Shown here one piece after another: positions 4,855 to 42,343 of a DNA stretch of 42,343 nt. Under the pieces are notes generated by a model. That model did not search any database, was not told the DNA's origin, and worked only from the letters and a program-made list of their open reading frames with translations. Numbering within the stretch: the stretch's first letter is position 1; each line of letters opens with the position of its first letter. Position numbers and translations under genes: made by a program. Origin of the DNA: an uncultured Paraprevotella sp. (lineage in GTDB: Bacteria > Bacteroidota > Bacteroidia > Bacteroidales > Bacteroidaceae); the NCBI GenBank assembly GCA_944319925.1, contig CALUFQ010000026.1, positions 1-42,343 of the forward strand. Direction: 5' to 3'.

Positions 4855-5006
4855 TCTTTGCTGCGATGGATTTTGTAATCCTGCGCAACTGAGGGGCGAA
4901 TTCCCGAATCCTTGGGGGTCGTAAGGGCTTACATGTGGCAGGCACTGTTTCGTGCAAAAATGTGGAAAGCTTTTTTCGGGTTGAAAATCCTGATACTCAA
5001 TTGAGG
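4855..5006. repeat. Dispersed intergenic repeat (family 2), copy 1
   Basis: Blocks TGCGATGGATTTTG..AATCC, GAATTCCCGAATCCTTGGGG, CGTAAGGGCTTA and AATCCTGATACTCAATTG recur in the same order at 10740-11010 and 41856-42080. No coding potential was recognised. Confidence 0.55.
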
Positions 5007-5018
5007 GTGTAGCAAAAT

Positions 5019-5158
5019 AAACTCCTCCACCTTGCAGGGGAGGTGGCGCGAAGCGGCGGAGGGGTCTTATGTCCACAAAGACATACTTTATGTGTGTGTC
5101 CGTGGGTGTGAAACCCCTCAGGCCCGTTGGGCCAGCTCCCCTACAAGGCGGAGCAGTT
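5019..5158. repeat. Large imperfect palindrome (family 1), copy 1, short form
   Basis: The left arm starts AAACTCCTCCACCTTGCAGG and includes GGTGGCGCGAAGCGGCGGAG; the right arm ends CTACAAGGCGGAGCAGTT and is its approximate reverse complement (arms about 55 bases). The centre is short and holds a single self-complementary core (ACATA..TATGT, around 5091-5104). It lies just downstream of the HTH-regulator gene stop (5217), so it could form an RNA hairpin at the end of that transcript. Confidence 0.65.
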
Positions 5159-5216
5159 CCTTCTCGCAGGTTTTGATACACCCTTGACAAAGCAGTTCCG
5201 CTTTGCCGGGGACAGT

Positions 5217-10023: not shown

Positions 10024-10314
10024 TCAGCTGTTTTGGCGAGGCTAAATGGATATGCAACAGGGAGAAACGAATTTTAGAAGACCGGGGATGGTTGAATTAA
10101 CATTCCGGAAAATGCCGGAATGCTTTTATGCAGGCGGCTTGCATAAGAGTTCACGCGTTCTTCGAATATTCGTTTGTGGTCAAGCGTGTTGCTTCCTATC
10201 GTTTGTCCGTCCGGAGGAAAAGCGGAACTGTTCCTAATCTTGGGGGGTTAACAACTGATGAATATTCATTTGTAATCAAGTGCCCTGCTTCCCGTCACTT
10301 GCCCATGCGGAGAA

Positions 10315-10630
10315 AAACTCCTCCGCCTTGCAGGGGAGGTGGCTCGAAGAGCCGGAGGGGTTTCCCACCCACGTGTCATTCCGCAAAGGGAACAAAACGG
10401 CCATTATGGCCGCCGCAAGGGGAACAAAACGGCCATTATGGCCGCCGCAAGGGAAACAAAAGGGTCGTTACGACCCTCCGCATGGCGAACAAAACGCCAT
10501 TATAGCCGCCGCGAGGGAAACAAAAGGGCACTATGGCCGCCGCACGGCGAACAGAAGGGGCGTTACGCCCCGTGGGTGTGAGACCCCCTCCGCCCCTTCG
10601 GGGCTCGTCCCCCTGCAAGGCGGGACAGTT
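10315..10630. repeat. Large imperfect palindrome (family 1), copy 2, with six-unit internal array
   Basis: Inverted arms of about 55 bases bound the element: left AAACTCCTCCGCCTTGCAGG..., right ...CTGCAAGGCGGGACAGTT. Between them, six contiguous units of 31-33 bases run from 10381 to 10571 (starts 10381, 10413, 10445, 10478, 10509, 10540). Each is a conserved half like CCGCAAGGGAAACAAAA plus a self-complementary core. Cores 1 and 2 are CGGCCATTATGGCCG, 3 is AGGGTCGTTACGACCCT, 6 is GGGGCGTTACGCCCC; 4 and 5 are imperfect. There is no ORF and no spacer as in CRISPR. Similarity with copy 3 continues about 35 bases to the left and about 110 bases to the right. Confidence 0.8.
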
Positions 10631-10739
10631 CATTCCTGGCGGCTTTGACTGCCGACATTCAGAAGTTTGTAAAAGCAGGAACTCTGTATTACTCAATTCG
10701 TTTTTCTAGATGGTGTTAAATCCCCAAGAATGCGGGCTG

Positions 10740-11010
10740 TCCCCTTTTGGAGCAGTAGGAATATAGTGGGGAACGGTTTCATGCTTCCCTGCTGTTATGC
10801 TGCGACGGATTTCCGAATCCGGCGCAATCCGAGTTGCGGATTTCTGAATCCTTGGGGGCGCAAAGGCTTTCTTATGACGCGAGTGAATACAAATAGGATT
10901 TATTTTTGCGGATTATAAATCCTGATACTCTATTGCGGGGGATTCCAAATCCCCCGCAGCAGAAAAACCTGATACTCAATTTCGTGGGATTGCAACTCCC
11001 ACGCATTTGA
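10740..11010. repeat. Dispersed intergenic repeat (family 2), copy 2
   Basis: Contains ATAGTGGGGAACGGTTTCAT, CGGATTTCCGAATCC, TTCTGAATCCTTGGGG and two AATCCTGATACTC / ACCTGATACTC blocks. Each of those is followed by a hairpin (10935-10957 with arms GCGGGGGATT/AATCCCCCGC; 10983-11003 with arms CGTGGGA/TCCCACG). Between 9952 and 11087 I see only repeats, the operon promoter and the GH43 terminator. Confidence 0.55.
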
Positions 11011-24821: not shown

Positions 24822-24878
24822 TTTTATGACCGCATAGGGCGAATGCTTTTTTGCTTTGTCACTTGCCCGTGCGGAGAA

Positions 24879-25102
24879 AAACTCCTCCGCCTTGCAGGGG
24901 AGGTGGCTCGAAGAGCCGGAGGGGTTTCCCACCCAAGTATCATTCCGCAAGGGAAACAAAACGGCCATTATGGCCGCTGCAAGAGAAACAAAAGGGTCGT
25001 TACGACCCCGCAAGGGAAACAAAACGGCCACATTATGGCCACGTGGGTGTGAGGCCTCCTCCGCCCCCTTTCGGGGCTTGTCCCCTGCAAGGCGGGACAG
25101 TT
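24879..25102. repeat. Large imperfect palindrome (family 1), copy 3, with three-unit internal array
   Basis: Same inverted arms as copy 2. The centre (24945-25043) has three units with cores CGGCCATTATGGCCG, GGGTCGTTACGACCC and GGCCACATTATGGCC. Flanks match copy 2: ACTTGCCC.TGCGGAGAAA on the left, and CGGCTTTGACTGC.GACATTC and GTGTTAAATCCCCAA.AATGC on the right (to about 25215). The 490-base gap 24822-25312 holds only this block and the alaS terminator. Confidence 0.8.
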
Positions 25103-25246
25103 CTTTCCTGCCGGCTTTGACTGCGGACATTCGGGGTCTGTAGAAACAGAAACTCTGCACCACCCAATTGCCTCTATTCATTTTTCCATTAGTGTTAAAT
25201 CCCCAAAATGCGAACTGTTCCGAGGAAAAGGTTTTTTGTAGAATTT

Positions 25247-41610: not shown

Positions 41611-41681
41611 TGGGCTATGGTGTAATGGTAACACAACAGATTCTGGTCCTGTTTTTCCAGGTTCGAGTCCTGGTAGCCCAA
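41611..41681 (+). tRNA. tRNA-Gln (CTG), copy 1
   Basis: 71 bases fold as a full cloverleaf: acceptor TGGGCTA/TAGCCCA, D stem GTGT/ACAC, anticodon loop TTCTGGT with CTG, T arm CCAGG-TTCGAGT-CCTGG, discriminator A. U1-A72 is typical of tRNA-Gln. The base pair 31-39 of the anticodon stem is A-C, a mismatch. CCA is not encoded. Confidence 0.93.
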
Positions 41682-41699
41682 CTTGGAAAGTATTTGAAT

Positions 41700-41770
41700 T
41701 GGACTATGGTGTAATGGTAACACAACAGATTCTGGTCCTGTTTTTCCAGGTTCGAGTCCTGGTAGTCCAA
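41700..41770 (+). tRNA. tRNA-Gln (CTG), copy 2
   Basis: Identical to copy 1 except for acceptor pair 4-69, which is A-U instead of G-C (TGGACTA/TAGTCCA). An 18-base spacer separates the copies, and no second promoter is visible, so both should come from one transcript. It keeps the 31-39 A-C mismatch. Confidence 0.93.
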
Positions 41771-41855
41771 CAGAAAAAGGAGGCGGCTTGACGCGGAAGC
41801 AGGGCGGTGTCTCCTTTATTTTGTTATATTTCATGCGTTTTGCGGGGCTACAGGA

Positions 41856-42080
41856 TGAGACAGTGGAAATTTAGTGGAGAACGGTTCCATGCTTCCCCGC
41901 CGGTACGTTGTGCAGATTACAAATCCGTCGCAATTGAGGTGCGGATTTCCGAATCCGCAAGCCCGTAAGGGCTTAGTTGCGTGAAGCCTAGGTCTATGCA
42001 ATCAAACGGTATGTTTTTTGGGGATTAAAAATCCTGATATTTAGTTGCGTGGGATTGCAAATCCCACGCGGCAAAAAATC
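41856..42080. repeat. Dispersed intergenic repeat (family 2), copy 3
   Basis: TTTAGTGGAGAACGGTTCCA, TTACAAATCCGTCGCAATTG, GCGGATTTCCGAATCC, CGTAAGGGCTTAG and AATCCTGATATTTAGTTG occur in the same order as in copies 1 and 2. It ends with the hairpin at 42047-42069 (arms GCGTGGGATT/AATCCCACGC). Confidence 0.55.
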
Positions 42081-42279
42081 AAAATGTCATGAAATGCTTG
42101 TGAGAATAGACAATTTGTTCCGTTTTAGGCAATTTTCATGACGAGACTTTTGCGCAATCCGGCCCAAATAGCAGATTTTTGCGCGATTTTTCTGCACAAA
42201 ATGGGGCTTCTGTGCAAGGCTTTGTCAAAGTCATTCATTTTTTGGAGCAGTCTGACGGGAAATTTCAGGGCTGGAACGC

Positions 42280-42323
42280 GAAATTCCGAGCCCCGGAATT
42301 CTTTTTTCGGGGCTCGGAATTTC
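42280..42323. repeat. Perfect 16-bp inverted repeat plus direct repeat
   Basis: GAAATTCCGAGCCCCG (42280-42295) and CGGGGCTCGGAATTTC (42308-42323) are exact reverse complements around 12 bases; CGGGGCTCGGA returns at 42329-42339. No gene was seen between 41771 and the right edge. Bases 42100-42270 contain short repeats of TTTTGCGC and TGTGCA type but nothing assignable. Confidence 0.75.
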
Positions 42324-42343
42324 TTTTTCGGGGCTCGGATGAA

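Follow-up and report, generated by a model that had tools for sequence, protein, structure and literature searches.

A tandem array of palindromic units in Paraprevotella is very probably the interior of a non-autonomous ISAon1-type MITE

The window, that is, the whole stretch of DNA analyzed here, comprises 42,343 nucleotides and corresponds to contig C26 of the 3.11-Mb draft genome (105 contigs) of an uncultured Paraprevotella sp., referred to as G000 or the source genome. At positions 10315–10630 the sequence matches the description given in the original prediction, which had placed six units of 31–33 bases between inverted arms. TRF located the tandem array at 10381–10553 with a period of 32, and the units are 32, 32, 33, 31, 31 and 32 bases long in order. 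The GC-rich arms aligned with 47 matches in 60 columns and a score of 32, compared with 16 or less in 500 shuffles. Sequence, TRF and arm shuffles thus confirm that the described array is real. The feature is larger than the original description, since the element (element 1) runs on to terminal inverted repeats outside the arms (Table 1). The right terminal repeat agrees with the left end of the same element at 21 of 30 positions. The cores of units 4 and 5 are 14 nt long and not self-complementary (CGCCATTATAGCCG and GGGCACTATGGCCG). Folding of the array region was better than that of shuffled sequences (z -5.6; 0 of 100 as good), an effect driven mainly by the arms. According to the ORF lists, element 1 is devoid of a transposase gene of its own.

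Table 1. Coordinates of the two array-bearing elements in the window and of their parts.
Feature	Position	Strand	Remarks
Element 1, probable ISAon1-type MITE, 520 bp	10224..10743	+	End-to-end homology to other copies; both ends found by script
Left terminal inverted repeat, element 1	10224..10253	+	GGAACTGTTCCTAATCTTGGGGGGTTAACA; 22/30 vs left end of the intact ISAon1-type IS L194
Right terminal inverted repeat, element 1	10714..10743	-	Minus-strand reading GGGACAGCCCGCATTCTTGGGGATTTAACA; 26/30 vs right end of L194 and L195
Left GC-rich arm	10316..10373	+	Pairs with reverse complement of right arm
Right GC-rich arm	10571..10630	-	Same arm alignment
Unit 1	10381..10412	+	Core A, CGGCCATTATGGCCG
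Unit 2	10413..10444	+	Core A
Unit 3	10445..10477	+	Core B, GGGTCGTTACGACCC
Unit 4	10478..10508	+	Broken 14-nt core
Unit 5	10509..10539	+	Broken 14-nt core
Unit 6	10540..10571	+	Core C, GGGGCGTTACGCCCC; last-unit type with AACAGAA spacer, at right arm
Terminator-like hairpin and T-run of unit 3	10459..10479	-	Pattern match only
Element 2, second copy	24858..25221	+	Lacks the left end; contains three units, at 24945, 24977 and 25008

Further repeats were observed in the window. A 183-bp repeat at 5003–5185 displays GAGGGTGTATCAAAA-type ends and related GC-rich arms and is without units. An interspersed repeat of about 600–700 bp (CAAAATCAGGATGTCATG...), present at 42080–42343 and at L014, L016, L021 and other loci, often starts right at a unit. 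Two tandem tRNA-Gln(ctg) genes at 41611–41771 lie within an 89-bp repeat.

A search of the whole genome for the unit pattern, as suggested in the original prediction, revealed 97 matches to the spacer CCGCAAGGGAAACAAAA with up to two mismatches (some of the two-mismatch matches resemble chance by eye) and 0 matches to the reversed control, so the pattern is not due to chance. The left arm matched at least 44 times. In the stretches fetched from the source genome we counted 64 arrays with 145 units: 25 arrays have a single unit, 16 have two, 14 three and 5 four, and one each has five, six, seven and eight units. Comparison of 21 genomes with element 2 gave matches in four of them (G000, G010, G001 and G008); among the matches listed, those of G001 are confined to the arms, and two come from G008. 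In G001 (L094, about 1272–2061) the arms occur twice with a DUF559 gene between them. When one genome per species was scanned for the unit pattern, 40 stretches were found, 28 of them in uncultured Paraprevotella BRZ_KA__bin9, one in Paraprevotella BRZ_EI__bin2 and 11 as single matches in unrelated organisms, which were taken as chance by estimate rather than by a control. Plasmid and phage collections contained no match to the element. According to the gene calls of our own script, 0 of 55 copies lie inside genes. At the orthologous sites L016/L152 and L017/L146 of G000 and G010 the number of units differs by one, showing at two sites that gain and loss proceed in steps of a single unit. Stretches of 1.6–1.9 kb were 100% identical between G000 and G010 at L024 with L151 and at L017 with L152, and others were 81–98% identical; the identical stretches suggest recent exchange. 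The element appeared more conserved than its flanks at L047/L183, an observation that was set aside since other stretches are 100% identical between both species.

Alignment of the flanks revealed sharp borders shared by the copies: the left border reads GGAACTGTTCCTAATCTTGGGGATTTAACA, and the right one, in inverted orientation, GGAACAGCCCGCATTCTTGGGGATTTAACA or GGAACAGTTCGCATTTTGGGGGATTTAACA. Exact 8-bp target duplications were present in 7 of 33 two-ended rows, and in 10 of 33 when one mismatch was allowed, compared with an expectation of 0.06 from mispaired flanks; the 8-bp flanks of the other 23 rows have two or more mismatches. These rows span 200–729 bp and derive from G000 and G010, L034 and L191 being listed twice with alternative left ends and L047 and L183 representing the same site. 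In a run counting elements in both orientations, the excess of exact duplications was at 8 bp, and other lengths gave none beyond 3 bp. The copy in the window (element 1) shows no 8-bp duplication (7 mismatches) and, by eye, sits inside remnants of other repeats. A search with joined flanks for 12 sites in seven genomes yielded one clearly empty site, one occupied site (L047) and 10 uninformative ones. The empty site is the G010 counterpart of the L050 copy, where the flanks form 308 continuous bases. A mobile element had been among the roles initially proposed for the array, and the sharp ends, the 8-bp duplications and the empty site bear this out. The features expected of a MITE are all found: a short length within the range of 50–1000 bp, terminal inverted repeats, a target duplication and presence or absence at an orthologous site. 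A second repeat family with GGGGCAGTAGAAATT... ends gave no sign of mobility; its 4 two-ended rows at 2 loci (a stricter run yielded 1) include 0 with a duplication. Likewise, among the 14 two-ended rows of 183-bp repeats with GAGGGTGTATCAAAA ends in the fetched loci, duplications of at least 3 bp were absent.

On contig C60 of the source genome, a terminal repeat of the first family is followed by a protein broken into three pieces. Searched singly, the pieces match NCBIfam ISAon1_upstream with E-values of 7e-6, 3e-6 and 2e-5, none of which reaches the cut-off of the family, and the protein is, judged by its sequence, a dead ISAon1 N-terminal remnant. Contig C23 carries a 65-aa C-terminal transposase remnant. 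Searches of G000 and G010, both of which are drafts with assemblies breaking at repeats, yielded no intact transposase of the ISAon1 family. The C60 remnant was matched in 21 of 349 genomes of the family, including two of other genera with 91% over the length of the remnant. Among these matches, L194 (genome G158) holds an intact insertion sequence of 1428 bp, which is flanked by GTTAATAT twice. Its orfA (122 aa) matches NF049916 with an E-value of 3e-40, and its orfB (327 aa) matches both NF049917, ISAon1 family transposase, with 472 bits and PF01610 (DDE_Tnp_ISL3) with an E-value of 1e-50. In L195, orfB is split across two frames. The ends of L194 and L195 agree with the MITE consensus at 24 of 30 positions on the left and at 26–28 of 30 on the right; for the copy in the window the values are 22 and 26. 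Six copies of the insertion sequence were inspected for 8-bp duplications, which are exact in L194 and L198; L196 and L199 each deviate at one position, L195 at two and L197 at six. An intact ISAon1 element in G008 has different ends resembling the second repeat family of the source genome. Thus, the ISAon1-family insertion sequences (NCBIfam NF049916/NF049917) and the MITE have terminal repeats and an 8-bp duplication in common, as expected for an ISAon1/ISL3 derivative, whereas the MITE is without a transposase gene and its arms and units are absent from the insertion sequence. In the literature searched, no paper names ISAon1. DUF559 (PF04480) was also considered as a mobilizing nuclease and rejected, as it has no match in the source genome; of 18 genomes of the genus, 3 contain it.

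Owing to the target duplications, the empty site and the ends shared with the intact insertion sequence, we consider it very likely that the array is the interior of a non-autonomous MITE belonging to the ISAon1 branch of ISL3-like insertion sequences. An ISAon1-family transposase supplied in trans would have recognized the terminal repeats, and the copies would have been inserted with 8-bp target duplications. The interior would be passenger DNA, in which imperfect GC-rich inverted arms surround a minisatellite. The variety of cores would stem from three founder palindromes and point change, and some two-sided changes may have arisen by template-switch repair of quasi-palindromes. The element represents an undescribed MITE family that differs from BrickBuilt and BOX elements in sequence, unit, ends and arms, while its kind, a MITE with an inner tandem array, is known.

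For the analysis of the core palindromes, 199 cores that are 15 nt long and centred on TTA were taken from the fetched loci (122 from G000 and 77 from G010; 195 after merging identical contexts). Cores of other length were dropped, among them two of the window array and the 14-nt core GGGCATTATGGCCG with 10 copies in G000, and this choice favours a reading in which the fold is selected. Perfect palindromes accounted for 114 of the 199 cores, compared with a mean of 43.9 and a maximum of 66 for re-paired halves. The cores formed on average 6.39 of 7 pairs, compared with 5.13 for re-paired halves and a maximum of 5.45 in 2000 shuffles. There are 51 distinct sequences, and the three founders make up 110 of the 199 cores (A 54, B 38 and C 18). 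The original prediction that the core changes from unit to unit and yet in most units stays self-complementary was therefore correct in its second part, as self-complementarity exceeds that of shuffles, and incorrect in its first, as the three founder sequences account for most cores. The same cores recur at many loci and the variable part draws on a limited set of palindromes common to them, in agreement with the view that the array is unlike CRISPR. The idea of a core rewritten during transfer finds no support in this small pool, in which point changes and half-hybrids are seen instead. Core changes showed a strand asymmetry, 24 being C>T and 14 G>A, which was too weak for use.

Compared with the nearest founder, 76 changes are one-sided, 50 of which lose the pair and 26 of which become G-T, and 4 are two-sided. 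Independence predicts about 4.9 two-sided changes, and all 4 that were observed keep a Watson-Crick pair. One explanation is that template-switch correction in replication keeps the two halves of a palindrome alike without selection. As far as the cited account of this mechanism goes, template switching at hairpins can yield paired changes without selection (PMC8794818). The half-hybrid core GGGTCGTTACGCCCC (18 copies) occurs beside the perfect cores B (38) and C (18), and CGGTCATTATGACCG, CAGCCATTATGGCTG and GGGACGTTACGTCCC are perfect two-sided derivatives, both of which would fit such correction. However, just 4 changes are two-sided, none of them is polarized on a tree, and the hybrids persist in both genomes, so that we regard this explanation of the palindromes as somewhat unlikely.

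An ongoing selection on the fold of a structured RNA or a row of DNA hairpins, in which paired changes would be compensatory, could account for the high number of perfect palindromes and for the two-sided changes that retain pairing. It would also agree with three other measures: 86.0% of cells were paired compared with 76.8%, the covariation score was 0.351 compared with 0.202 (0 of 500 shuffles as high in either case), and cells changed on both sides exceeded all 500 shuffles, with the sliding control falling off too; all three measures are inflated by kinship. Measures robust to kinship did not exceed the shuffles. Pairs with a two-sided change numbered 4 compared with 3.3 (212 of 500 shuffles as high), and pair types numbered 13 compared with 12.1 (156 of 500 as high). 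Moreover, the orthologous cores at L047/L183 differ by unpaired, one-sided changes, broken 14-nt cores such as GGGCATTATGGCCG are common and had been removed before counting, and the element has no match among the curated RNA families of Rfam. With one-sided changes in such excess, selection on the fold is improbable, and the claim that the fold and not the sequence is maintained could not be upheld. The one-sided excess, the robust measures within the range of shuffles, the unpaired differences between orthologues and the gain and loss of units show that the palindromes are real and old and that the variation seen today mostly reflects a few founders that have decayed and mixed.

A platform on which a palindrome-binding protein or a recombinase could land had been proposed as well. 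Conserved palindromes, a constant spacer and an invariant TTA centre, which was itself a selection criterion, would suit this role, but the three founder cores are unlike each other and broken copies are numerous, which makes it very improbable. REP/REPIN-like elements mobilized by a RAYT (Y1) transposase would share the high copy number, intergenic location and palindromic nature of the units, but hardly come into question, as the initial distinction from ordinary REP elements had implied: PF01797 is absent from the source genome, one of 18 genomes of the genus matches it (G010, partial, 31.8 bits), and DDE-type 8-bp duplications and 30-bp terminal repeats suit another transposase.

Apart from its probable origin as the interior of a MITE, the array may have an effect on transcription. 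Read along the minus strand, every unit of the element consists of a 6-bp GC-rich stem and a UAA loop, followed by TTTTGTTT or a similar sequence. Folding energies of the unit hairpins ranged from -9.2 to -11.5 kcal/mol. A hairpin in which five or all of the 6 pairs form and which is followed by 8 bases containing five or more T was present in 159 of 195 units on the element minus strand and in 0 on the plus strand. A terminator consensus scan gave 3 sites in the region compared with a shuffle mean of 1.3, and the sites coincided with minus-strand unit hairpins in 2 of 3 cases for element 1 and in 4 of 6 for element 2. The spacer, which was not used in detection, adjoins 170 of 177 cores, and the positions of its A-run are 93–99% constant, except for one at 75%. 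Since the T-run is confined to one strand, a one-way terminator effect is plausible, and an intergenic copy might, as a tentative reading of the sequence, function as a series of weak intrinsic terminators effective in one direction. For 32 copies with both neighbours called by our own script, the strands of the flanking genes in element orientation were -- in 12, ++ in 9, +- in 9 and -+ in 2 cases; the gene on the right points towards the array in 21 of these 32 copies and the gene on the left in 18. Placement driven by terminator function was rejected, as there is no clear orientation bias relative to the flanking genes. The scarcity of divergent sites would fit purging from promoters.

A lone exact unit outside any MITE was observed in G008 (L008, 1502–1522, and the same in L123), where it forms the 3′ end of lgt. 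The stop codon of this gene (TIGR00544, 149 bits) lies within the hairpin loop of the unit. The end of lgt in G009 (L157) differs from that of G008. It is conceivable, if rather doubtful, that the MITE spreads ready-made one-way terminator rows of up to eight per copy and so serves as a portable insulator, and that the unit was captured from or donated to a gene end as in lgt of G008.

The element adds an undescribed MITE family linked to ISAon1 insertion sequences and provides a record by which the spread of MITEs in Paraprevotella can be dated. Its approximately 200 short palindromes with known relatives are a natural set for separating compensatory selection from template-switch correction. 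If the terminator reading is true, a transposon-borne unit would reshape transcript ends in gut bacteria.

The closest resemblance in architecture is to known MITEs with inner repeats. BrickBuilt from Porphyromonas gingivalis is described as a high-copy, strictly intergenic MITE with an inner minisatellite of variable unit number between leader and tail (PMC4596501). Like BrickBuilt in this account, the present element is a Bacteroidales MITE with an inner minisatellite, high copy number, varying unit number and an intergenic location. BrickBuilt is, according to the same source, composed of 23-nt repeats without a spacer, and has terminal repeats like those of the IS5-family elements ISPg1/ISPg9 and duplications of uneven length (PMC4596501). 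In contrast, the present element has a period of 32 with hairpin units of 31–33 bp, ISAon1/ISL3-type ends, 8-bp duplications and GC-rich inverted arms; neither a 23-nt repeat nor IS5-type ends were found, which sets it apart from BrickBuilt as described there. BOX elements of Streptococcus contain, in the cited description, a variable tandem series of self-folding boxB modules enclosed by outer modules that pair (PMC3049150). In S. suis an inner module is reported with other outer modules, and here arms and units recur in several repeat families. Sequence and host are unrelated, BOX elements are described as AT-rich MITEs whereas the present element is GC-rich, and boxB, unlike the present unit, is not characterized in that description as a hairpin with a T-run (PMC3049150). 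SPRITE from pneumococcus is presented as an interspersed repeat like a Rho-independent terminator, with a single 18-bp duplex and a U-rich tract (PMC3049150, PMC10969869). In these accounts it shares with the present element the nature of a terminator-like interspersed repeat, whereas the present element consists of tandem short hairpins inside a MITE.
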